Of a stretch of DNA of 36,452 bases, positions 21,567 through 36,328 are shown piece after piece. The stretch comes from Magnetospirillum sp. Lineage in GTDB: Bacteria > Pseudomonadota > Alphaproteobacteria > Rhodospirillales > Magnetospirillaceae. The first letter of the stretch is position 1, and each line of letters starts with the position of its first letter. The translations under genes and the position numbers were made by a program. Location of the stretch: contig JACRFY010000117.1 in the NCBI GenBank assembly GCA_016212565.1, positions 1-36,452 on the forward strand, written 5' to 3'. The notes below the pieces were generated by a model. The model was not told the DNA's origin and did not search any database. It worked only from the letters and a program-made list of their open reading frames with translations.

Positions 21567-22331
21567 CTACGGCAGCGCACACAGCCGCCGCAGCGAGCCG
21601 ACGTCGTCGATGTGCACCGCATTGCCTTCGGTGCGGATGCCGAGGTCGCGCAGGCGGGCGAGCACGCGGCTCAACGATTCGCGGCGGATGCCGACCCGGC
21701 TGGCCAGGACTTCCTTGTTGAACGGCAGCGACACCACCGTTTGCCCGTCGCGGGCATCGGTAAGGGCGAGCAGGAACTCGGCAACCCGCTGCCACGGCGG
21801 CAATTCCTTGAGATGCCAGATCTCGCCGGCCAGGCGCTGGTGCCAGCGGGTCAGCGCTGCCAGCATCGAATAGGCGACATGGTGATCCGAGCGCAGGGTG
21901 GCGACGAAGGCGCGACTGCCGACGCGGATCAGGGTGGCGTCCTCGATCACTTCGGCATGGAGGGGAAAGATGCCGATCGACAGCATCGCCGCTTCGCCGA
22001 ACGACGACAGCGGGGTGAAGACCTCGACGATGCTTTCGCGGCCGTCCGGAGTCAGGGCGAACAGTTTCACCTGGCCTTCGAGGACGATGTAGAAGCAGTC
22101 GGCCGGGGTGCCGGCGTCGAACAGGACGGTGCGGCGGTCGCAGGCCAGGGCGGTGGAATCGGCCAGCAGGCGGCCGACCACCTCGCTGTCCAGTCCGTCG
22201 AACAGCGGCAATCCCATCACCAGGGGGGCGAGGCTGGGACCGGAGGTTCGGTGGCGGGGCAGCGGTCCGCGCGGGCGGGTGCAACCGACTTTGGGAACCA
22301 GACACAGCGGGCGGCAGGGACAGTCGGCCAT
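21567..22331 (-). CDS. CRP/FNR-family regulator with an N-terminal Cys cluster
   Basis: A 254-aa transcription factor. After an N-terminal extension, a cyclic-nucleotide-type beta barrel (PLFDGLDSEVVGRLLADSTA, VLEGQVKLFALTPDGRESIV) leads to a winged helix-turn-helix: FNKEVLASRVGIRRESLSRVLARLRD, whose ESLSR matches the E..SR pattern that reads TTGA-type half sites. Four Cys occur in the first 17 residues (C4, C6, C10, C17: CPCRPLCLVPKVGC), a spacing unlike the FNR cluster. The gene lies next to a second regulator and near nirS, which suggests a role in denitrification control. Confidence 0.85.
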   Translation of the reverse strand: MADCPCRPLCLVPKVGCTRPRGPLPRHRTSGPSLAPLVMGLPLFDGLDSEVVGRLLADSTALACDRRTVLFDAGTPADCFYIVLEGQVKLFALTPDGRESIVEVFTPLSSFGEAAMLSIGIFPLHAEVIEDATLIRVGSRAFVATLRSDHHVAYSMLAALTRWHQRLAGEIWHLKELPPWQRVAEFLLALTDARDGQTVVSLPFNKEVLASRVGIRRESLSRVLARLRDLGIRTEGNAVHIDDVGSLRRLCALP

Positions 22332-22350
22332 GGTCAGACCCTCGCTCTCT

Positions 22351-23043
22351 TCACGCCACCATCTCGGCGGCATCGCCCAACCGACGCAGGGCGGCGACGT
22401 CGGCAATCACCACCCGGTCGCCGCGGCCGGATTCGACTCCGGCGTCGCGCAATTTGGCGAAGGCCCGCGACAGCGTCGCCGGCTCCATCCCCAGGCGGTC
22501 GGCCAGCAGGCGCTTTTCGCACGGCAGGCGCACCGCCGCGCGGCCGCAATCGGTGCCGGCCAGTTCGCACAGGTAGCTGGCGAGGCGCTCGGTGGTCGAT
22601 TGCAGCTTCAGTTCGGTGATTTCCTTGATCTGCCCGCGCAGCGACCCGGCCATGGCGGCGATCATCGCCAGCGCGGTGTCGAAGCGGCGGTCGAGATAGG
22701 CGAGCAGACGCTCGGAGGAAATCGCCACCACCGCGGTCGGCACGGCGGCCGAGGCGGCGGCGGCGTGACGGCCGCCGGCCACCAGGGCCTCGGCGCCCAC
22801 CGTCTCGCCGGCGCCGAGGCGGGCCAGCAGTTCGGGGGGGCAATAGTCGCGGGTCAGCGTCAACTCGACGGTGCCGTCGAGGATCAGGAACAGGCGCCGG
22901 GCCGGCGCGCCCTGGGCGAACCACAGCTCTCCCTCGGCAATGTCGAGGACCATCGGGTCGTCGAGAATTGTCGGCAGATCGCAGCGCGGCACCATGGTGA
23001 ACAGGGGGGCTCGCGCCAAAACCGCCAAGGCTTCGGTACTCAT
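22351..23043 (-). CDS. CRP/FNR-family regulator, Dnr/NnrR-like
   Basis: A 230-aa regulator with an N-terminal sensor barrel (LFLILDGTVELTLTRDY) and a C-terminal winged helix (CEKRLLADRLGMEPATLSRAFAKLRDAGV). The recognition segment EPATLSRAF is typical of Dnr/NnrR proteins, which activate nir, nor and nos genes in response to NO. It lacks an FNR-type Cys cluster. An FNR/Dnr-like box (23098-23111) lies about 55 bases upstream. It lies 19 bases upstream of the other CRP/FNR gene on the same strand, so they may be co-transcribed. Confidence 0.85.
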   Translation of the reverse strand: MSTEALAVLARAPLFTMVPRCDLPTILDDPMVLDIAEGELWFAQGAPARRLFLILDGTVELTLTRDYCPPELLARLGAGETVGAEALVAGGRHAAAASAAVPTAVVAISSERLLAYLDRRFDTALAMIAAMAGSLRGQIKEITELKLQSTTERLASYLCELAGTDCGRAAVRLPCEKRLLADRLGMEPATLSRAFAKLRDAGVESGRGDRVVIADVAALRRLGDAAEMVA

Positions 23044-23239: not shown

Positions 23240-24973
<1,734 letters not shown>

Positions 24974-25180: not shown

Positions 25181-25774
25181 ATGTCAACAGATGTATCTTT
25201 GGCGAGAAAAGCACTGCGGATAAAGATTCTTGGCGCTTCTCTCAGCGGAGCAGCCATTCTCTTCGTCAGCGGCATCATATTTTGGGGCGGTTTCAACACC
25301 GCGATGGAAGCCACCAACACGCTTGATTTCTGTATCTCGTGCCACGAGATGGAAGACAATGTTTTTCAAGAGTACAAAAAGACCATTCATTATACCAATC
25401 GTAGTGGCGTCCGCGCCGCCTGTTCCGACTGCCATGTGCCCAAGGACTGGGTGCACAAGCTGATCCGCAAGGTCCAGGCCTCCAACGAGATCTACCACAA
25501 GATCATGGGCACGGTTTCGACGCCCGAGAAGTTCGACGCTCACCGCTTCGAACTGGCCAAGCGGGTCTGGGCGACGATGAAGTCGACCGACTCGCGGGAG
25601 TGCCGCAACTGCCACGCCTTCGACCAGATGAACCCGGAAATGCAGAAGCCCCGCGCCCGCAAGCAGCATGAGAACGCGGTCGAGGACGTCATGACCTGCA
25701 TCGATTGCCACCAGGGGATCGCGCACAAGCCGGTGCACGACCAGCTCAAGACCGAAGCCGCAGGGGAGAAGTGA
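25181..25774 (+). CDS. nirT: NapC/NirT-family membrane-anchored tetraheme cytochrome c
   Basis: A 197-aa periplasmic protein held by an N-terminal membrane helix (ILGASLSGAAILFVSGIIFW). Four CXXCH heme motifs are visible: CISCH, CSDCH, CRNCH and CIDCH. Members of this family oxidise quinol and pass electrons to periplasmic reductases such as NirS. The ATG at 25181 gives the family-typical N-terminus. The first 75 or so codons use many A/T-ending codons (for example AGA AAA GCA, ATA AAG ATT CTT), unlike the rest of the gene and its neighbours. The stop is 2 bases from the next gene. Confidence 0.93.
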   Translation: MSTDVSLARKALRIKILGASLSGAAILFVSGIIFWGGFNTAMEATNTLDFCISCHEMEDNVFQEYKKTIHYTNRSGVRAACSDCHVPKDWVHKLIRKVQASNEIYHKIMGTVSTPEKFDAHRFELAKRVWATMKSTDSRECRNCHAFDQMNPEMQKPRARKQHENAVEDVMTCIDCHQGIAHKPVHDQLKTEAAGEK

Positions 25775-25776
25775 CG

Positions 25777-26796
25777 ATGACGCACACGTTCGCGAAAAAG
25801 TTGGGGATTGCCACCGCGGCCATCGCCCTGTTTGCCACCGGGTCCGCCGTGGCGGCGCCCAAGGTCGACTGGTCGAAGGTCCCCGAGGCCCAGACGACGC
25901 TGTTCTACCCCGGCCAGACCTCGTTCGAGTGGGTGCAGACCGGCACCGACCACGGCGGCGCCCGCTCCTTCGTCAAGAAGGGCGACCGCTGCGCCGAGTG
26001 TCATGGCGGCGAGCAGAAGGACATGGGCGAGAAGATGGTCACCGGGACCAAGGCCGAGAAGTCGGTCATCCCCGGCAAGCGCGGCTCGATCCCGATGAAG
26101 ATCAAGGCCACCTTCGACGCCACCAATCTCTACATGCGCTTCGAATTCCCGGCCGGCGCCCACACCGCGGCGCCGTTCGCGCCCGGCGGCAAGATGGATG
26201 CCGAGAACGAGATCAAGCTGGCGATGATGGTCGATCCGGGCAAGAACGACCTGCAGACCCGCTCGGGCTGCTGGGCGACCTGCCACGACGACAACCGCGA
26301 CATGCCCAGCGCGCCGGCCAAGGACAAGCTGGCGGCGGCCAAGGGCATCGACGTTTCGGGCGGCTACGTCACCAAGTACCTGGCCGACTCGCGCACCGCA
26401 GTGGAACTGAGCGGCGCGGCGCGCGGCGGCTGGGACAAGGTCAAGCCGGCGGCCGAGGTCGAGGCGGCGGTCAAGGGCGGCGCCTTCATGGACCTGCTGC
26501 GCTGGAAGCAGGGCAAGAACGTCTCCGAGGACGGCTACATCGCTGCCGAGCGGGTGATGAAGGGCGGCGAGGGCGTGCAGTTCGAGGGCAAGAAGGAAGG
26601 CGCCAACTGGGTGGTGACCATGACCCGCAAGCTGGGCTCGGCCCAGCCCGGCGACGTCGCCCTGGAAGCCGGCAAGACCTATACCGTCGGCTTTGCCGTC
26701 CATGACGACTACACCGCGGGCCGTTTCCACCATGTGTCGGTGGACATGCGTCTCGGCCTGGGCGCCGACGGCGACATCAAGGCGGTCAAGCAGTAG
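25777..26796 (+). CDS. Periplasmic c-type cytochrome with ethylbenzene-dehydrogenase-like heme domain
   Basis: A 339-aa exported protein (MTHTFAKKLGIATAAIALFA, then TGSAVAA). It has a classical CAECH (Cys72-His76) and a second motif CWATCH (Cys165-His170) with three residues between the cysteines. The second half resembles EB_dh domains, which bind heme b in type II DMSO-reductase-like enzymes (MKIKATFDATNLYMRFEF, DVSGGYVTKYLADSRTA, YTVGFAVHDDYTAGRFHHVS). It lies between nirT and the cupredoxin gene, with GGGGAGAAG just before the ATG, and probably carries electrons between NirT and NirS. I do not recognise a characterised homolog. Confidence 0.8.
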   Translation: MTHTFAKKLGIATAAIALFATGSAVAAPKVDWSKVPEAQTTLFYPGQTSFEWVQTGTDHGGARSFVKKGDRCAECHGGEQKDMGEKMVTGTKAEKSVIPGKRGSIPMKIKATFDATNLYMRFEFPAGAHTAAPFAPGGKMDAENEIKLAMMVDPGKNDLQTRSGCWATCHDDNRDMPSAPAKDKLAAAKGIDVSGGYVTKYLADSRTAVELSGAARGGWDKVKPAAEVEAAVKGGAFMDLLRWKQGKNVSEDGYIAAERVMKGGEGVQFEGKKEGANWVVTMTRKLGSAQPGDVALEAGKTYTVGFAVHDDYTAGRFHHVSVDMRLGLGADGDIKAVKQ

Positions 26797-26823
26797 GCCG
26801 AAGGCGAGGGGGAGGAGGCGACG

Positions 26824-27153
26824 ATGGGCGGAACGGCGACTGGTCCGGCGCTTTTCGCTCTCTTCCTCCTTCTTGCCGGTCAGGCGGCGGCCGAGACGGT
26901 GGCTCACGTGGCCATCAACCGCAACCTGTTCGACCCCGCCCGCATCACGGTGTCGCCGGGGACGGTGGTCGAGTGGCTCAACGGCGAGAAACGCACCAGC
27001 CACTCGGTGCTGTTCGAAAAGGAAGGCTTGGCCGAATCCGAGCGCATGCTCCCCGGCGACAGCTGGCAGCGCACGTTCGACAAGCCGGGGATCTACGAGT
27101 ACCGCTGCGGCCCTCATCCCGAGATGAGGGGCGTGGTCGAGGTGGTGCCCTGA
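26824..27153 (+). CDS. Cupredoxin (type I copper protein)
   Basis: A 109-aa secreted protein with signal peptide (MGGTATGPALFALFLLLAGQ). It has the type I copper ligands in plastocyanin/amicyanin order: His60 (RTSHSV), Cys95, His98 and Met101 (YRCGPHPEM). WLNGEKRTSHSV and PGIYEYRCGPHPEMRG are typical. It is short, like an amicyanin or a truncated pseudoazurin. GGAGGAGG precedes the ATG. It sits inside the nir operon and probably shuttles electrons to NirS, since no nirM-type cytochrome c551 is present in the cluster. Confidence 0.9.
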   Translation: MGGTATGPALFALFLLLAGQAAAETVAHVAINRNLFDPARITVSPGTVVEWLNGEKRTSHSVLFEKEGLAESERMLPGDSWQRTFDKPGIYEYRCGPHPEMRGVVEVVP

Positions 27154-27170: not shown

Positions 27171-27944
27171 ATGCGCAACCGCGGCAAGGTGTGGCTGGTC
27201 GGCGCCGGTCCGGGCGATCCCGATCTGTTGACTCTGAAGGCGGCGCGCCTGATCGCCGCCGCCCGGGTGGCGGTGGTCGACCGTCTGGTCGGCGCCGGCA
27301 TCCTCGCCCTGTTGCCGTCCGATTGCCGGGTGATCGATGTCGGCAAGGAAACCGGCCACCATTCCCTGCCGCAGCCCGAAATCAATGCCTTGCTGGTGCG
27401 CCTCGCCAGCGATGGCGCCGACGTGGTGCGTCTCAAGGGCGGCGATCCGTTCATTTTCGGCCGTGGCGGCGAAGAGGTTCTCGAACTGGCCGCCGCCGGC
27501 ATTCCTTTCGCGGTCGTCCCCGGCATCACCGCCGCTGCCGGCTGCGCCGCCGCCGCCGGCATCCCGCTCACCCATCGCGGTATCGCCGAGGGCGTGCGGC
27601 TGGTCACCGGGCATCTGCAACAGGATCATGCCCTCGACCTCGACTGGACCCGTCTCGCCGATCCGCGCTGCACCCTGGTGGTCTATATGGGAGTCGGCAG
27701 CGTCGCCCCGCTGAGCGGCGGGCTGATGGCCGCCGGGCTGAATGCCGCCACCCCGGTGGCGGTCATCGAGCGCGGCACCACCGCCGCCCAGCGCACCCTG
27801 TTCTCGACCGTCGGGACGCTGGTCGACGACGTCGCCCGCTGGCAGCCGCAGCCGCCCGCCCTGCTGGTGATCGGCGAGGTGGTCCGCCTGGCGCAAGACC
27901 GTCCGCTGGCCGCGGTGGCGACCGGCGAGGTGTGCTGTGGGTAG
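27171..27944 (+). CDS. nirE: Uroporphyrinogen-III C-methyltransferase for heme d1 synthesis
   Basis: A 257-aa SAM-dependent enzyme that methylates uroporphyrinogen III at C2 and C7 to precorrin-2, the entry point to heme d1. Diagnostic motifs: VWLVGAGPGDPDLLTLKA, VVDRLVGAGI, VVRLKGGDPFIFGRGGEE, PGITAAAGCAAAAGIPLTHR and LVVYMGVG. The ATG at 27171 has GGAG upstream. It is the stand-alone SUMT type without CysG domains. The CobA name is equally fitting; the position in the nir operon argues for NirE. It overlaps nirC by 8 bases. Confidence 0.94.
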   Translation: MRNRGKVWLVGAGPGDPDLLTLKAARLIAAARVAVVDRLVGAGILALLPSDCRVIDVGKETGHHSLPQPEINALLVRLASDGADVVRLKGGDPFIFGRGGEEVLELAAAGIPFAVVPGITAAAGCAAAAGIPLTHRGIAEGVRLVTGHLQQDHALDLDWTRLADPRCTLVVYMGVGSVAPLSGGLMAAGLNAATPVAVIERGTTAAQRTLFSTVGTLVDDVARWQPQPPALLVIGEVVRLAQDRPLAAVATGEVCCG

Positions 27945-28296
27945 GCGCGCCGCCAAGCCCCTCTCCCGCGAGTGGGCGAAGGGCTTCGGGGCGGTCCTTC
28001 TCGTCCTTTTCCTCTCCGTCCCCGCTTTCGCCGACCCGGGGCCGGCGCGGCGTAGCGAGCTGACCGAACTGGTGGCCCAGGATTGCGGCTCGTGCCACGG
28101 CCTCACCCGGGCCGGTGGCCTGGGCGCCCCGCTGACCGCCGCCGCCCTCGCCGATCTCAGCGAGGAAGCGGTCGCCTACACCATCCTCGAAGGCCGCCCC
28201 GGCACGCCGATGCCGCCGTGGAAGTCGATGCTGTCGGAACCCGAGGCGGTGTGGATCGCCCGTCTGCTCAAGGAAGGACACGCCGGTGCGCGCTAG
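27937..28296 (+). CDS. nirC: Monoheme cytochrome c (NirC)
   Basis: A 119-aa exported cytochrome c starting at GTG 27937. After a long basic n-region (MGRRAAKPLSREWAKG) a hydrophobic stretch leads to AFADPGPARR. Heme c binds at CGSCH (Cys50-His54), and Met in GTPMPPW is the axial ligand. NirC is a small class I cytochrome in nir operons that can donate electrons to NirS or assist heme d1 maturation. The n-region contains an inverted repeat (AAGCCC ... GGGCTT, 27955-27986). It overlaps nirE by 8 and nirF by 11 bases. Confidence 0.9.
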   Translation: MGRRAAKPLSREWAKGFGAVLLVLFLSVPAFADPGPARRSELTELVAQDCGSCHGLTRAGGLGAPLTAAALADLSEEAVAYTILEGRPGTPMPPWKSMLSEPEAVWIARLLKEGHAGAR

Positions 28297-29449
28297 CATC
28301 CTCCTCGCCGTCACCCTGCTGCTGTCGGCCTGCGCCGCGGCGCCGCGCGCCACCGGCGATCTCGGCGTGGTCGTCGAGCGCGCCGACGGGCGACTGCTGG
28401 TGGTCGAGCACAGCGGCAACACCCGGCTGGCCTCGGTCGAGGGGCTGGGCGACCTGTCCCACGCCTCGGTGGTGTTCTCCCGCGACGAGCGCTTCGCCTT
28501 CGTCTTCGGCCGCGACGGCGGCCTGACCAAGGTCGATCTGCTCGAAGGCCGCATCGCCGGCCGGGTGATGCAGTCGGGCAACTCCATCGGCGGCGCCATC
28601 TCCCAGGACGGCCGGCTGGTGGCGGTGGCCAACTACACCCCCGGCGGGGTCAAGGTCTTCGACACCGCCACCCTGGAACTGGTCGCCGACATCCCGGCGA
28701 TCGGTGCCGACGGCAAGCGCTCGAAGGTGGTGGGGTTGGAGGACGCGCCCGGCAACCGCTTCGCCTTCTCGCTCTACGAGGCCGGCGAGATCTGGCTGGC
28801 CGATCTCAAGCAGCCCCAGGCGCCGAAGATCACCCGCTTCCCCGGCATCGGCAAGCTGCCCTACGACGCCCTGGTCACCCCCGACGGCCGCTTCTACCTC
28901 GCCGGCCTGTTCGGCGAGGACGGGATCGCCCTGCTCGACCTGTGGGCCCCGGAAAAGGGCGTGCGCCGGGTGCTCGACGCCTATGGCAAGGGCGAGCAGG
29001 CCCTGCCGGTGTTCAAGATGCCGCATCTGGAGGGCTGGGCCCAGGCCGGCAACGAGGCCTTCCTGCCCGCCATCGGCCGTCACGAGGTGCTGGGCATCGA
29101 CATGGGACGCTGGACCGAGAGTGCCCGCATCCCGGTGCTCGGCCAGCCGGTGTTCGTCATGGCCCGCCCCGACGGCCGCCAGTTGTGGGTCAATTTCGCC
29201 CTGCCACATAACGACAAGGTGCAGGTGATCGACGTCCCCAGCCGCACGGTCATTGCCACCCTGCTGCCGGGGAAGGCGATCCTGCATCTGGAATTCACCC
29301 CCCGCGGCGAGCGGGTGTGGCTGAGTGCGCGCGATTCGGACAAGCTGGTGGTCTATGACACCGAGACCCTGGAGGTGGTGGCCGAGCTGCCGGCGGTGAA
29401 GCCGTCGGGAATCTTCTTCACCGCCCGCGCCCACACGACCGGCCTGTAG
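28286..29449 (+). CDS. nirF: Heme d1 biosynthesis protein NirF, lipoprotein form
   Basis: A 387-aa periplasmic protein required for heme d1 synthesis, with a beta-propeller related to NirS but without the cytochrome c domain. The start is GTG 28286 with AAGGAAG upstream. The leader MRASILLAVTLLLSAC ends in a lipobox, so it is probably anchored in the membrane. Segments such as DERFAFVFGRDGGLTKVDLL, AVANYTPGGVKVFDT, KLPYDALVTPDGRFYLAGL and ALPHNDKVQVIDV are NirF-like. It overlaps nirC by 11 bases and is 4 bases from nirD. Confidence 0.94.
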   Translation: MRASILLAVTLLLSACAAAPRATGDLGVVVERADGRLLVVEHSGNTRLASVEGLGDLSHASVVFSRDERFAFVFGRDGGLTKVDLLEGRIAGRVMQSGNSIGGAISQDGRLVAVANYTPGGVKVFDTATLELVADIPAIGADGKRSKVVGLEDAPGNRFAFSLYEAGEIWLADLKQPQAPKITRFPGIGKLPYDALVTPDGRFYLAGLFGEDGIALLDLWAPEKGVRRVLDAYGKGEQALPVFKMPHLEGWAQAGNEAFLPAIGRHEVLGIDMGRWTESARIPVLGQPVFVMARPDGRQLWVNFALPHNDKVQVIDVPSRTVIATLLPGKAILHLEFTPRGERVWLSARDSDKLVVYDTETLEVVAELPAVKPSGIFFTARAHTTGL

Positions 29450-29453
29450 GGCG

Positions 29454-29912
29454 ATGCTGGTCCTCGACGATATCGACCGCCGCCTGCTCGATCTCTACCA
29501 GCGCGACCTGCCGCTGGTGGCGCGGCCCTTCGCCGCCATGGCTGAGGCGGTGGGCGTCGGCGAGGACATCGTGCTCGCCCGTCTCGCCCGCCTGTCCGAG
29601 GCCGGGGTGATCAGCCGGATCGGCGCCGTGTTCCGTCCCCACCGCTGCGGGCATTCGACCCTGGCGGCGATGGCGGTGCCCGCCGAGCGCCTGGAGGAGG
29701 TGGCGGCGGTGGTCAGCGCCTATCCCCAGGTCAACCACAATTACCAGCGCGACCACACCTTGAACCTGTGGTTCGTGATCGCCGCCGCCGACGCCGCCGA
29801 GGTCGCCGCGGTCATGACCGAAATCAAAGACCGGACCGGCATCGCCGTGCTCGACTTGCCGCTGATCGAGGATTTCCACATCGACCTGGGGTTCGACATC
29901 CGATGGAGCTGA
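29454..29912 (+). CDS. nirD: Siroheme decarboxylase subunit NirD
   Basis: A 152-aa cytoplasmic AsnC/Lrp-like protein that, with NirL, NirG and NirH, decarboxylates siroheme to didecarboxysiroheme. The N-terminal helix-turn-helix-like part (DDIDRRLLDLYQRDLPLVAR) and the ferredoxin-like half with YPQVNHNYQRDHTLNLWFVI are characteristic of the NirD/NirG branch. In this family the HTH no longer serves DNA binding. Starts at ATG 29454, 4 bases after nirF, and overlaps nirL by 10 bases. Confidence 0.94.
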   Translation: MLVLDDIDRRLLDLYQRDLPLVARPFAAMAEAVGVGEDIVLARLARLSEAGVISRIGAVFRPHRCGHSTLAAMAVPAERLEEVAAVVSAYPQVNHNYQRDHTLNLWFVIAAADAAEVAAVMTEIKDRTGIAVLDLPLIEDFHIDLGFDIRWS

Positions 29913-30397
29913 GCGACCGCGATCTCGACTTGGTGTCCGTGCTCTGCGACGGCCTGCCGCTGGCGCCGCGGCCGTTCCAGGCCGTCGGCGTCGCCATCGG
30001 CATGGGCGAGGACGAGGTGCTCGGCCGTCTCCAGGCCTTGCAGCAGGGTGGGGTGATCCGCCGCTTCGGCGTCATCGTCCGCCACCACGAACTCGGCTAT
30101 CGCGCCAACGCCATGGTGGTGTGGGAGGTGCCGGCCGACGCTCTGTCGGCGGTGGGCCGCCGCCTCGGCGCCTGCCCCGAAGTCACCCTGTGCTATTCCC
30201 GTCCGCCGCGGCCGCCGGCCTGGCCCTACAGCCTGTTCACCATGGTCCACGGCAAGAGTCGCGGCACCGTCGAAGAGGCGGTGGCGGTGCTGGCCGAGCG
30301 CGAGGGCGTGGCCCATTACCGTCACGAGCTGCTGTTCAGCACCCGCCGCTTCAAGCAATGCGGCGCCCGCTATCAGCGGCGGATGGCGGCGGAATGA
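29903..30397 (+). CDS. nirL: Siroheme decarboxylase subunit NirL
   Basis: A 164-aa member of the NirL/NirH branch. RRFGVIVRHHELGYRANAMVVWEVP, then CYSRPPRPPAWPYSLFTMVHGKSR, are characteristic. It pairs with NirD in the decarboxylase complex. The ATG at 29903 overlaps the nirD end, showing coupling. It overlaps nirG by 4 bases (ATGA). Confidence 0.93.
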   Translation: MELSDRDLDLVSVLCDGLPLAPRPFQAVGVAIGMGEDEVLGRLQALQQGGVIRRFGVIVRHHELGYRANAMVVWEVPADALSAVGRRLGACPEVTLCYSRPPRPPAWPYSLFTMVHGKSRGTVEEAVAVLAEREGVAHYRHELLFSTRRFKQCGARYQRRMAAE

Positions 30398-30855
30398 GGG
30401 ACGCCGCTTCCCTCTCGCCCCTCGACCGCCGCATCGTCAACGCCCTGCAAGCCGGCTTCCCGATCTGCGAGCGCCCCTTCGCCGCCGCCGCCGAGTCGCT
30501 GGGCATCGACGAGGACACCCTGATCGCCCGCCTTCAGGCCCTGCGCGAGGCCAACGTGCTGACCCGCTTCGGCCCCCTCTACGACGCCAATCGCTTCGGC
30601 GGCCACGTCACCTTGGCGGCGTTGGCCGTGCCGGCCGAGCGCTTCGATGCCGTCGCCGAAATCGTCAATGCCTTCCCCGAGGTCGCCCACAATTACGCCC
30701 GCGAGCACCGCCTCAACATGTGGTTCGTGGTCGCCGCCGAATCGGTTGAGGCGGTTGCCCGGGTCTTGACCGAAGTCGAGGCGCGGACCGGTCTGACCGT
30801 CTACGACATGCCCAAGACCCGCGAATTCTTCGTGGGCTTGAGACTGGAAGCATGA
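30394..30855 (+). CDS. nirG: Siroheme decarboxylase subunit NirG
   Basis: A 153-aa protein of the NirD/NirG branch. FGPLYDANRFGGHVTLAALAVP and FPEVAHNYAREHRLNMWFVV repeat the NirD pattern with clear differences. It begins at ATG 30394 within the nirL stop. It completes the second decarboxylase pair with NirH, and its stop overlaps the nirH start (ATGA). Confidence 0.93.
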   Translation: MRDAASLSPLDRRIVNALQAGFPICERPFAAAAESLGIDEDTLIARLQALREANVLTRFGPLYDANRFGGHVTLAALAVPAERFDAVAEIVNAFPEVAHNYAREHRLNMWFVVAAESVEAVARVLTEVEARTGLTVYDMPKTREFFVGLRLEA

Positions 30856-31331
30856 TCGATTTCGACGCCGTCGACCGCGCCCTGATCGTTGCCACCCAGG
30901 AGGGCCTGCCGCTGGTGCCGCAGCCCTATGCCGCAGTGGCCGAGGCCATCGGCATTTCCGCCGCCGAGGCGATGGCGCGGCTGCGTCGCATGCAGGACTC
31001 CGGTGCCATCCGCCGCATCGCCGCGGTGCCCAACCATTACGCGCTCGGCTACCGCTTCAACGGCATGACCTGCTGGGACGTCGCCGACGGCGATATCGCG
31101 GCCGCCGGCACCGCGGTGGCGGCGCTGCCCTTCGTCAGCCACTGCTACCAGCGCCCGCGCCATCTGCCCGACTGGCCCTATTCGCTGTTCGCCATGATCC
31201 ATGCCAAGGACGCGGAATCCGCCGAAGGCCTGGTGGCCGAGGTGGCGGCGGCGTTGGGCGATCTGTCGCGCGGCCATGTGGTGCTGTTCTCGACCCGCAT
31301 CCTCAAGAAAACCGGCCTGCGCCTGTCCTAG
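30852..31331 (+). CDS. nirH: Siroheme decarboxylase subunit NirH
   Basis: A 159-aa member of the NirL/NirH branch. RRIAAVPNHYALGYRFNGMTCWDV and CYQRPRHLPDWPYSLFAMIH are diagnostic, and the order D-L-G-H matches Pseudomonas nir operons, where each gene is distinct rather than fused as NirDL. Starts within the nirG stop; nirJ follows after 10 bases with its own GGAGAG site. Confidence 0.93.
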   Translation: MIDFDAVDRALIVATQEGLPLVPQPYAAVAEAIGISAAEAMARLRRMQDSGAIRRIAAVPNHYALGYRFNGMTCWDVADGDIAAAGTAVAALPFVSHCYQRPRHLPDWPYSLFAMIHAKDAESAEGLVAEVAAALGDLSRGHVVLFSTRILKKTGLRLS

Positions 31332-31341
31332 GAGAGCCCGC

Positions 31342-32481
31342 ATGTTCCGCCTGTCCCAGTTCATGCGCGAGCTGACCGCTCCCACCCCCGCCGGTCCGCG
31401 CCGCCTGCCGCCAGGGCCGGTGGTGATCTGGAATCTGGTGCGCCGTTGCAACCTCACCTGCCGGCATTGCTATTCGATTTCCGCCGACAAGGACTTTGCC
31501 GGCGAGTTGTCGACCGACGAGGTGTCGTCGGTGCTCGACGACCTCAAGGCCTTTCGCGTGCCGGCCCTGATTCTGTCGGGCGGCGAGCCGCTGCTGCGTT
31601 CGGATATCTTTGCCATCGCCGCCCGCGCCAAGGGGCTGGGGTTCTACACCGCCCTGTCCACCAACGGCACCCTGATCGACGAGCGGGCCGCCGACCGGAT
31701 CGCTGCCATCGGCATCGATTACCTGGGCATCAGCATCGACGGCATCGGCGAGGTCCATGACCACTTTCGCGGCAAGGAGGGCGCCTTCGCCCACGCCTTG
31801 GCCGGATTGCGCCACTGCCGGGACCGCGGCGTCAAGGTGGGACTGCGCTTCACCATGACCCGCGACAACGAAGCGACCCTGCCGGCGGTGCTCGACCTGG
31901 CGGAGGGGGAGGGGATCGCCAAGTTCTACCTTTCGCACCTTAACTACGCCGGCCGCGGCAACAAGAACCGCGGCGAGGATTCGGCCTTCGCCGCCACCCG
32001 CGCGGCGATGGACGCGCTGTTCGAGCGGGTGTGGGCCAAGACCGGGCGCGGCGAGGAGTCCGAATTCGTCACCGGCAACAACGATGCCGACGGCGCCTTC
32101 TTCCATGGTTGGGTGGCGCGGCGCTTTCCCGCCCATGCCGAGCATATCCGCGCCAAGCTGGAGCAATGGGGCGGCAATGCCTCGGGGGTGGCGGTCGCCA
32201 ACATCGACAACCTCGGCAACGTCCATCCCGACACCATGTGGGGCCATGTCACCCTGGGCAACGTGCGTGCGCGGCGCTTCGGCGACATCTGGAGCGACGT
32301 TTCGCATCCGTTGATGGCCGGGCTGAAGGCGTTCCCGCGCCGTCTGGGCGGGCGCTGCGGCGACTGCCGCTGGCTGGGGATGTGCAACGGCAACAGCCGC
32401 GTCCGCGCCGAGCGCATCCACGGCGAGGTGTGGGCCGAGGACCCGGGATGCTACCTGACGGACGAGGAGGTGAGGGGATGA
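31342..32481 (+). CDS. nirJ: Radical SAM heme d1 biosynthesis protein NirJ
   Basis: A 379-aa radical SAM enzyme that removes propionate side chains from didecarboxysiroheme to install the keto groups of heme d1. The [4Fe-4S] cysteines are in RRCNLTCRHCYS (Cys36, Cys40, Cys43), followed by ILSGGEPLLR and TALSTNGTLID. C-terminal cysteines for an auxiliary cluster are in CGDCRWLGMCNGNSRVRAE and DPGCY. The ATG at 31342 has GGAGAG upstream. The stop overlaps the nirN start (ATGA). Confidence 0.95.
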   Translation: MFRLSQFMRELTAPTPAGPRRLPPGPVVIWNLVRRCNLTCRHCYSISADKDFAGELSTDEVSSVLDDLKAFRVPALILSGGEPLLRSDIFAIAARAKGLGFYTALSTNGTLIDERAADRIAAIGIDYLGISIDGIGEVHDHFRGKEGAFAHALAGLRHCRDRGVKVGLRFTMTRDNEATLPAVLDLAEGEGIAKFYLSHLNYAGRGNKNRGEDSAFAATRAAMDALFERVWAKTGRGEESEFVTGNNDADGAFFHGWVARRFPAHAEHIRAKLEQWGGNASGVAVANIDNLGNVHPDTMWGHVTLGNVRARRFGDIWSDVSHPLMAGLKAFPRRLGGRCGDCRWLGMCNGNSRVRAERIHGEVWAEDPGCYLTDEEVRG

Positions 32482-34082
32482 TGCGGTCGAGCTTCTGCAA
32501 AAGTCCCGTCAAGCCCGGGCATGACGCGTTTGGACGGGCGAGGGGATTGCTTGCCGTTCTTCTCCTCGTCCTCTCCACCCCCGCTCTCGCCGATCCCGAC
32601 CCGGCCCGCCTGTTTGCCGAGCATTGTGCCGCCTGCCACGGCGCCGACCGTCTCGGCGCCATCGGCCCGGCGTTGCTGTCGGAGAATCTCGGCCGCCTCA
32701 AGCCCGCCGAGGCCGAACAGGTGATCGCCAACGGTCGCCCGGCCACCCAGATGGAGGGGCTCAAGGAGGTCCTGAGCCCGGCCGAGATCAAGGCCCTGGC
32801 CGCCTATGTCTTCACCCCGCTGCCGGCGGTGCCGCGCTGGGGCATGGCCGAGATCGCCGCCAGCCGGCTGGTTCATGTCGACCAGGCCACGCTGCCGGCC
32901 AAGCCGCCCTTCGCCGCCGATCCGCTCAATCTGTTTACCGTGGTCGAGACCGGCGACCACGCCATCACCATCCTCGACGGCGACGCGATGGCGCCGCTCT
33001 ACCGCTTGCCGACCCGCTTCGCCCTGCATGGCGGCGCCAAGTATTCGCCCGACGGCCGCTTCGTCTACCTCGCCTCGCGCGACGGCTGGGTGCAGAAGAT
33101 CGACATGTGGACCGGCACCCTGCTGGCCGAGGTGCGGGTCGGCATCAACACCCGCAACGTCGCCGTCTCCCACGACGGCCGCTTCCTGATGGTCGGCAAC
33201 GTGTTGCCCCACACCCTGGTGGCGCTGGATGCCGACGATCTCAAGCCGTTGCAGGTGATCCCGGTCCAGGGCGACGGCAAGAGCTCGCGCGTCTCGGCGG
33301 TCTATACCGCGCCGCCGCGGTCCTCGTTCGTGGTGGCGCTGAAGGACATCCAGGAGCTGTGGGAGATCCCCTACGCCGACGATGCCGGCCCGGTGCTCAA
33401 CGGCCTGGTGCATTCCTACGAGAAGGGGCTGGAGGAGGGCGACAGCACCGGCGGCCGCTTCCAGGCCCTGCGCATCCGTACCGAGGACTTCCTCGACGAC
33501 TTCTTCTTCGATCCCGGCTACGAGCGGGCGATGGGCGCCTCGCGCGACGGCAAGCGCGGCATCGTCGTCGACCTCGACATCAAGCGCACCTGGGCGCGGC
33601 TCGACCTGCCGGGCATGCCCCATCTCGGCTCGGGGATCGTTTTTCGCAAGGACGGTCGGCTGATGATGGCGACGCCGCACCTCAAGGAGGCGGTGGTCAG
33701 CGTCATCGACATGGAGAGCTGGCAGACGGTCAAGCGCATCCCCACCCTGGGGCCGGGCTTCTTCATGCGCGGCCACGAGAAGTCCCCCTATGCCTGGGTG
33801 GATGTCTCGCTGGGCAAGGACAAGGATGCCATGCAGGTGATCGACACCCGCACCCTGGAGATCGTCGCCACCCTGCGCCCGGCGCCGGGCAAGACCACCC
33901 GGCATGTGGAATTCGACCGCACCGGGACCAAGGTGCTGCTGTCGGTGTCGGAGAAGGACGGCGAATTGCTGGTCCTCGACGCCGCGAGCTTTGCGGTGCT
34001 GAAGCGGCTGCCGATGAAGCTCCCGGTCGGGAAGTACAATGTCTACAACAAGATCACCTACTCGGCGGGGACCAGCCACTGA
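32478..34082 (+). CDS. nirN: Dihydro-heme d1 dehydrogenase NirN
   Basis: A 534-aa periplasmic NirS-like protein that carries out the last step of heme d1 synthesis, introducing the acrylate double bond. A cytochrome c domain (CAACH, Cys50-His54; Met in ATQMEGL) precedes an eight-bladed propeller. RGHEKSPYAWVDVSLGKDKD holds the conserved distal His. It ends VGKYNVYNKITYS, similar to the end of NirS. The n-region before the signal helix is longer than usual and contains a REP-like palindrome in DNA. Last gene of the operon, 13 bases from a convergent gene. Confidence 0.94.
   Translation: MMRSSFCKSPVKPGHDAFGRARGLLAVLLLVLSTPALADPDPARLFAEHCAACHGADRLGAIGPALLSENLGRLKPAEAEQVIANGRPATQMEGLKEVLSPAEIKALAAYVFTPLPAVPRWGMAEIAASRLVHVDQATLPAKPPFAADPLNLFTVVETGDHAITILDGDAMAPLYRLPTRFALHGGAKYSPDGRFVYLASRDGWVQKIDMWTGTLLAEVRVGINTRNVAVSHDGRFLMVGNVLPHTLVALDADDLKPLQVIPVQGDGKSSRVSAVYTAPPRSSFVVALKDIQELWEIPYADDAGPVLNGLVHSYEKGLEEGDSTGGRFQALRIRTEDFLDDFFFDPGYERAMGASRDGKRGIVVDLDIKRTWARLDLPGMPHLGSGIVFRKDGRLMMATPHLKEAVVSVIDMESWQTVKRIPTLGPGFFMRGHEKSPYAWVDVSLGKDKDAMQVIDTRTLEIVATLRPAPGKTTRHVEFDRTGTKVLLSVSEKDGELLVLDAASFAVLKRLPMKLPVGKYNVYNKITYSAGTSH
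32507..32526. repeat. REP-like near-palindrome inside the nirN leader
   Basis: CGTCAAGCCCGGGCATGACG is almost self-complementary (one mismatched pair) and resembles the CGTCATGCCCGGGCTTGACC core of a common alphaproteobacterial dispersed repeat. It encodes SPVKPGHDA in NirN. Confidence 0.6.
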
Positions 34083-35641: not shown

Positions 35642-35965
35642 CTACTTGCAGATATTGATGATGTCCTTGGCGGTCACCACCACTTCCTTGGGTGCCTGCT
35701 GACCCGGCTGGGTGGTGCCGACGTTCATGTTGCAGGTGCCGGCCTTCTTGCTGCCGAAATTGACCACCGTCTGGTCGTTCATCTGCTCGTAGCCGGACTT
35801 CTTTTTCTGTCCGCCGTCCATGGTCCAGCGCTTGGCCTTGACGTTGTCGACCTTCGACTGGCCGTGATTGTCGAGGTGCGAGCCGCGGTTGATGTCGCCC
35901 GCCCAGGCTGGCAGGGCAATGGCGGCCGCGATGGCGATCGCACCGGCAAGCATCCACGTCTTCAT
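35642..35965 (-). CDS. Small secreted protein of a tandem family, member 2
   Basis: A 107-aa protein with GGAGG 7 bases upstream of the ATG and a clear signal peptide (MKTWMLAGAIAIAAAIALPAWA). The mature part is Asn/Gln/Lys-rich (DNHGQSKVDNVKAKRWTMDG) and ends VVVTAKDIINICK with a lone Cys at the second last position and another in KAGTCNMNVG. The layout (Cys-N-x-G near the end, then x-C-K/R) matches the two upstream genes. Function unknown. It lies 18 bases after the previous gene in the operon. Confidence 0.7.
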   Translation of the reverse strand: MKTWMLAGAIAIAAAIALPAWAGDINRGSHLDNHGQSKVDNVKAKRWTMDGGQKKKSGYEQMNDQTVVNFGSKKAGTCNMNVGTTQPGQQAPKEVVVTAKDIINICK

Positions 35966-35983
35966 GGTGAGCCTCCGCTGGAA

Positions 35984-36298
35984 TTACTTGCAGTCGGGAT
36001 CGGCGCCGGTGACGCCGATGTTGACGCAGCCCTTGCGCCCGCGTCCGCCGACCACGTTCTGGACGTTCTTCGCATCCACCGAAACAGTGCTGCCGCCGCT
36101 ATGGCTGCTGTTGATGGCGCCGATGTTGGTCTTGGCGACGGTGTTCTGCCCGGTGGCGACGGTGTTGACGTCCTGGGCATTGACGTTGAGGGTGTTGTTG
36201 CCCCTCAGGCTGATGCCGCCCGTCTGCTGGGCCGACGCCGCGCCGACCACACCGACGACCAGCGCCGCGACAAGGAAAGAGGCCGGGAAAAGACGCAT
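35984..36298 (-). CDS. Small secreted protein of a tandem family, member 1
   Basis: A 104-aa protein; the ATG at 36298 has GGGGAG 8 bases upstream, so the track start at 36313 is not used. A signal peptide (MRLFPASFLVAALVVGVVGA) precedes an Asn-rich region of short degenerate repeats (NNTLNVNAQDVNTVATGQNT, TNIGAI, STVSVDAKNVQNVVG), consistent with a beta-strand-rich or fibre-like surface protein. It ends KGCVNIGVTGADPDCK. An extended -10 promoter lies just upstream. Confidence 0.7.
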   Translation of the reverse strand: MRLFPASFLVAALVVGVVGAASAQQTGGISLRGNNTLNVNAQDVNTVATGQNTVAKTNIGAINSSHSGGSTVSVDAKNVQNVVGGRGRKGCVNIGVTGADPDCK

Positions 36299-36328
36299 CG
36301 CCGTACTCCCCACATGGTCCGATCAACG

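Follow-up and report, generated by a model that had tools for sequence, protein, structure and literature searches.

The nir operon of the window

The stretch of DNA analyzed here (referred to as the window, 36,452 nucleotides, positions 1 to 36,452 on the forward strand of contig JACRFY010000117.1, Magnetospirillum sp. assembly GCA_016212565.1) contains a closely spaced run of genes on one strand, nirT-nirB-cupredoxin-nirE-C-F-D-L-G-H-J-N, with nirS in divergent orientation (Table 1). A first-pass annotation, made from the sequence without database searches, had placed a 339-aa cytochrome and a type I copper protein between nirT and nirE, and the coordinates of both open reading frames match exactly. 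The nirT product has four CxxCH motifs and an N-terminal hydrophobic stretch, as seen by inspection of its sequence, together with the PF03264 match listed in Table 1, and a gap of two bases separates the end of its gene from the ATG of the cytochrome. Within the heme d1 genes, NirJ gave an NCBIfam equivalog match of 588 bits (cut-off, 515). Both the cytochrome and the cupredoxin gene are part of the nir operon. The same gene set, with both heme motifs of the cytochrome conserved, recurs in dozens of genomes, so that the pairing is far beyond chance.

Table 1. Genes of the nir locus in the window and NirB-like genes beside MtrAB-type genes at other loci
Feature	Position	Strand	Description and evidence
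Two Crp/Fnr-type regulator genes	21567-23043	-	Beside nirS; tblastn synteny; Crp/Fnr assignment by eye
nirS	23240-24880 (start codon picked by us)	-	Cytochrome cd1 nitrite reductase; Pfam Cytochrom_D1 1.3e-148 plus cytochrome c domain
nirT	25181-25774	+	Membrane-anchored tetraheme NapC/NirT quinol dehydrogenase; Pfam Cytochrom_NNT 2.9e-73, NCBIfam napC_nirT 2.2e-80
nirB orthologue	25777-26796	+	339 aa; periplasmic diheme-type cytochrome, EB_dh family
Cupredoxin gene	26824-27153	+	109 aa; type I copper protein; Pfam Copper-bind/plastocyanin 4.7e-11
nirE	27171-27944	+	Uroporphyrinogen-III methyltransferase, heme d1 synthesis; Pfam TP_methylase 6.6e-46 plus NCBIfam
nirC, nirF, nirD, nirL, nirG, nirH, nirJ, nirN	27937-34082	+	Heme d1 assembly; ORFs and synteny of relatives
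NirB-like EB_dh, MtrA-like decaheme	L057 6991-9029		After NirT-type tetraheme; locus cut by contig end
NirB-like EB_dh, MtrA-like decaheme, MtrB/PioB-like porin	L058 1874-5996
NirB-like EB_dh, MtrA-like decaheme, MtrB/PioB-like porin	L060 7842-11802
NirB-like EB_dh, MtrA-like decaheme, MtrB/PioB-like porin	L061 4009-8431
NirB-like EB_dh, MtrA-like decaheme, MtrB/PioB-like porin	L070 6695-11527		After NirT-type tetraheme

Two other features of the window can be mentioned. The pair of Crp/Fnr-like regulator genes is kept beside nirS in relatives, and they are candidate nir regulators. Toward the end of the window, on the reverse strand (35642-36313), two small proteins that look secreted and have many Asn, Gly, and Val residues are encoded in tandem (ORFs 35642-35965 and 35984-36313).

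Identity and distribution of the cytochrome

The CAECH (residues 72 to 76) and CWATCH (residues 165 to 170) motifs reported in the cytochrome are present. However, EB_dh is not a "half" of the protein, as it had been called; the Pfam domain EB_dh (PF09459) spans residues 30 to 321 (E value, 1.7e-35) and includes both heme motifs, leaving no separate cytochrome half. A Pseudomonadales genome (L191) carries the order nirS-nirT-X-nirM-nirC-nirF-nirD-nirL-nirG-nirH-nirJ-nirE-nirN, the published nirSTBM order of the P. stutzeri type. Its protein X, at the nirB position, belongs to the EB_dh family, carries CAACH and CWASCH motifs, and has 39% identity to the cytochrome of the window. In P. stutzeri RCH2, the gene between NirS (Psest_0815) and NirF (Psest_0821) that is annotated as "Ethylbenzene dehydrogenase" is Psest_0817 (PMC5554334). 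Because an EB_dh protein fills the nirB slot in L191 and is found between NirS and NirF in RCH2, the cytochrome of the window is identified as NirB (P. stutzeri cytochrome c-552 family) and not as an alternative to it, and the contrast with P. stutzeri NirB drawn in the first-pass annotation does not hold; the comparison with P. stutzeri itself was made through synteny and literature, and that of sequences with the NirB of L191. The two systems share the order nirT-nirB beside nirS, the EB_dh domain, and the combination of one CxxCH with one CX3CH. They differ in that, in the window, nirS is divergent, a cupredoxin takes the place of nirM, and nirE comes next. NirB has been described as the diheme partner of the tetraheme NirT (PMC13086519, PMC8954225).

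The first-pass annotation had also allowed for these genes being absent from related nir operons, and the opposite was found. Relatives within the same order have the homologue immediately after nirT, beside nirS and the heme d1 genes, as in the window, and nirS was at the same locus in 100 of the 112 loci. A scan of named genomes extended the distribution across the Alpha- and Gammaproteobacteria, with carriers in Magnetospirillum, Paramagnetospirillum, Sedimenticola, Bradyrhizobium metagenome-assembled genomes (MAGs), Motiliproteus, Aliikangiella, and many other MAGs. This wide distribution and the NirB of L191 rule against a lineage-specific cytochrome. An electron route peculiar to this lineage and built on a cytochrome other than NirB, which an operon devoid of nirM but equipped with a cupredoxin could suggest, is thus hardly credible, given that the cytochrome is NirB and widespread in both classes. 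What stands of the different route that had been proposed is the likely passage of electrons from NirT through the cytochrome toward NirS.

The CX3CH motif and the fold of NirB

The CX3CH motif had been regarded as an oddity. However, exactly one CxxCH and one CX3CH were found in all 140 NirB domains of nir-type loci inspected, L191 included, a count that is biased for L071 to L150 since GCWx[TS]CH formed part of one of the three search patterns. The CX3CH form in these domains was always C-W-x-[TSA]-C-H. In a pattern-independent set, obtained by whole-genome protein searches, homologues and paralogues down to about 30% identity also carry CX3CH. The motif is, from these sequences, a trait of the family and not a peculiarity of the lineage of the window. 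An alignment of 33 sequences has among its invariant positions both heme motifs, H309, R316, F317, H318, and S321.

A search of the PDB with a single NirB sequence gave no match, and a profile of the alignment matched NXR-C (7B04) and EbdC, the gamma subunit of ethylbenzene dehydrogenase (2IVF). The AlphaFold model of the window NirB (mean pLDDT, 84.7) also matched EbdC and NXR-C by Foldseek, with modest TM-scores (0.42 / 0.63 for EbdC), so that sequence profile and predicted structure place the three proteins in one fold family. EbdC and NXR-C work within molybdoenzymes and hold one noncovalent heme b through Met and Lys ligands (Met155 and Lys305 in NXR-C), whereas NirB has two motifs for covalent heme and no molybdoenzyme partner. 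The last Arg of NXR-C that is matched by the profile (301) aligns with R316 of NirB, and therefore the Lys305 ligand falls beside H318/H319. The second heme of NirB probably sits in a pocket equivalent to the heme b site of EbdC and NXR-C. Identification as the gamma subunit of a molybdoenzyme (type II DMSO reductases) was considered separately and rejected, as the adjacent genes are only nir and the score against TIGR03477 was 20 bits (cut-off, 169.85).

We infer that NirB binds two hemes and that, most likely, a heme c is covalently attached at its CX3CH, for which one of the invariant His residues, H309 or H318, would be the distal ligand. Heme c on a CX3CH motif has a precedent by mass spectrometry in MmcA (PMC11024163). 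The deviation from the canonical heme motif might also mean that CX3CH is free of heme, its cysteines forming a disulfide or serving some other use, and that NirB is monoheme. We consider this very improbable, considering the invariance of the His and both Cys in all domains, the MmcA case, and the published description of NirB as diheme.

The cupredoxin

The 109-aa protein has the type I copper ligands that had been read from its sequence, H60, C95, H98, and M101 (a His plus Cys-x2-His-xn-Met), and the Pfam search agreed with the assignment (Table 1). Among the distinct cupredoxins found next to NirB, 84 of 85 keep C-x2-H-x(1-5)-M, a count that concerns this part of the site, the copper His ligand being visible by eye in the sequences. 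Amicyanin and plastocyanin are among the closest solved relatives in the PDB, and both, like pseudoazurin, have the type I copper ligands and the fold family in common with the cupredoxin of the window. None of these names could be assigned, with scores of 35.8 (amicyanin), 27.5 (pseudoazurin), and 38.1 bits (plastocyanin) against NCBIfam cut-offs of 110.2, 109.85, and 87.85, respectively; it likewise scored under the cut-off for halocyanin. Since the function is deduced from ligands and position alone, one could think of a protein handling copper or NO and not carrying electrons to NirS, but the near-universal Cys-His-Met part of the site and the electron carriers among its closest solved relatives make this quite improbable.

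The association of the cupredoxin with NirB is frequent. The nearest of the queried genes 3' of the 100 terminal NirB domains with enough flanking sequence for scoring (same strand, up to 2.5 kb away, so that genes other than those queried could intervene) was a cupredoxin in 84, nirE in 7, nirC in 3, and nirM in 1, with none in the remaining 5. At 11 loci with another type of NirS (about 60 to 67% identity to the window NirS), no NirTB and no cupredoxin were seen up to about 1.5 kb away; one of these loci gave just a weak (27%) NapC/NirT-like match. Apart from the cupredoxin of the window, its own genome (92% complete) gave no Copper-bind match. No nirM was found in the window operon, and a NirM query of the genome gave only a weak match (35%) elsewhere. 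On the other hand, the adjacent cupredoxin is missing in several close Magnetospirillum that have NirTB (L031, L033, L035, L072, and L073), which indicates that it is replaceable and not essential to the module.

The system in the window is of a known kind, NirS with NirTB. What truly sets it apart from P. stutzeri is the cupredoxin that stands where NirM would be, a common arrangement that is not peculiar to this genome. Copper donors to NirS are ordinary, and the capacity of azurins and pseudoazurins to supply denitrification reductases is established (PMC13086519). We found no account of the NirTB-linked cupredoxin in the open-licence literature.

NirB-like proteins outside nir loci

One branch of NirB-like proteins (about 34 to 39% identity over the full match, CX3CH kept) adjoins an MtrA-like protein with ten hemes and a porin of the MtrB/PioB type (Table 1). 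A similar gene set, likened here by its description, is the "cytochrome c-552 (2 hemes)"-MtrA-MtrB operon of Telmatospirillum, for which an extracellular role was proposed (PMC6933298). Given their kinship with NirB, the MtrAB-linked proteins could possibly take part in extracellular electron transfer as a periplasmic bridge. Further paralogues, with about 39 to 44% identity to the window NirB, were found in genomes of the Magnetospirillum family (L055, L231, L232, L233, and L234); no MtrAB-type genes were present in their fetched flanks, nor any nir genes in that of L055. Longer EB_dh proteins (open frames of 410 to 508 aa, about 30% identity, CX3CH kept) were found at L062 to L067 and L069, some of them near NapC/NirT-like genes, and they are not nir linked.

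NirT-NirB fusions and the probable route of electrons to NirS

Most relatives have NirT and NirB in one polypeptide. Fusions, as NirT-NirB or NirT-NirB-NirB, account for 107 of 129 distinct domains (17 split, 5 left unassigned), and this is good evidence for direct electron transfer from NirT to NirB. A fused NirTB was already reported in Halomonas sp. 2A (cited in PMC13086519), and the same two modules are found on a plasmid of Azospirillum brasilense Sp7, in Ruegeria sp. THAF33, and in Sedimenticola, in the last three cases followed by a cupredoxin, as in the window. The annotation of the plasmids of A. brasilense Sp7 and Ruegeria gives nirS, a "NapC/NirT family" gene, and a "plastocyanin/azurin" gene consecutively. 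In contrast to the fused forms, NirT and NirB are separate genes in the window, a minority arrangement shared with a group of Magnetospirillum. At another locus (L043, 9746-13313), two tandem nirS-like genes (80 and 61% identity to the window NirS) follow NirTB and the cupredoxin.

Quinol would deliver electrons to NirT at the inner membrane, and NirT would hand these on to NirB and its pair of c hemes, in a direction, with the corresponding potentials, that we infer. NirB may then reduce the cupredoxin, NirS, or both, for the conversion of nitrite to NO or for the reductive activation of NirS. The cupredoxin would be the mobile carrier, with the role of the c551 NirM in P. stutzeri-type operons. 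A path from NirT through NirB toward NirS is likely from sequence evidence, and the same order is implied in the literature (PMC8954225). Taken as a whole, the pair very probably consists of the NirB cytochrome and a small cupredoxin, both belonging to an ordinary nirS denitrification operon, in a chain fed by NirT.

The extent to which NirT and NirB influence NirS activity was called unresolved in work on nitrite accumulation (PMC13086519). Possibly, NirT and NirB serve to activate NirS reductively or hold it active and do not feed its turnover, for which the donor would be the cupredoxin after its reduction by cytochrome bc1, as two parallel branches. In line with this, PMC13086519 cites a NapC-family protein that activates cd1 reductively, as well as azurin, pseudoazurin, and cytochrome donors linked to bc1, and some relatives have NirTB without an adjacent cupredoxin. 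However, the cupredoxin is tightly linked to NirTB and not to the NirS genes devoid of NirTB, suggesting that they act jointly. We can offer just as tentatively a more far-reaching version of the NirT-fed chain, namely, a widespread and undescribed variant in which electrons would go from quinol through NirT-NirB and a dedicated cupredoxin to NirS, bc1 could be bypassed, a CX3CH heme c would replace the b heme of the EB_dh fold, and related bacteria would have put the NirTB module to use again, together with MtrAB-type conduits.

These results correct the idea of an exotic cytochrome in the operon of the window. The CX3CH motif is a signature of the NirB family and a useful marker for genes whose annotation goes no further than "ethylbenzene dehydrogenase" or "NapC/NirT family." The repeated pairing of NirTB with a cupredoxin is a testable candidate for electron delivery to NirS in many environmental denitrifiers.
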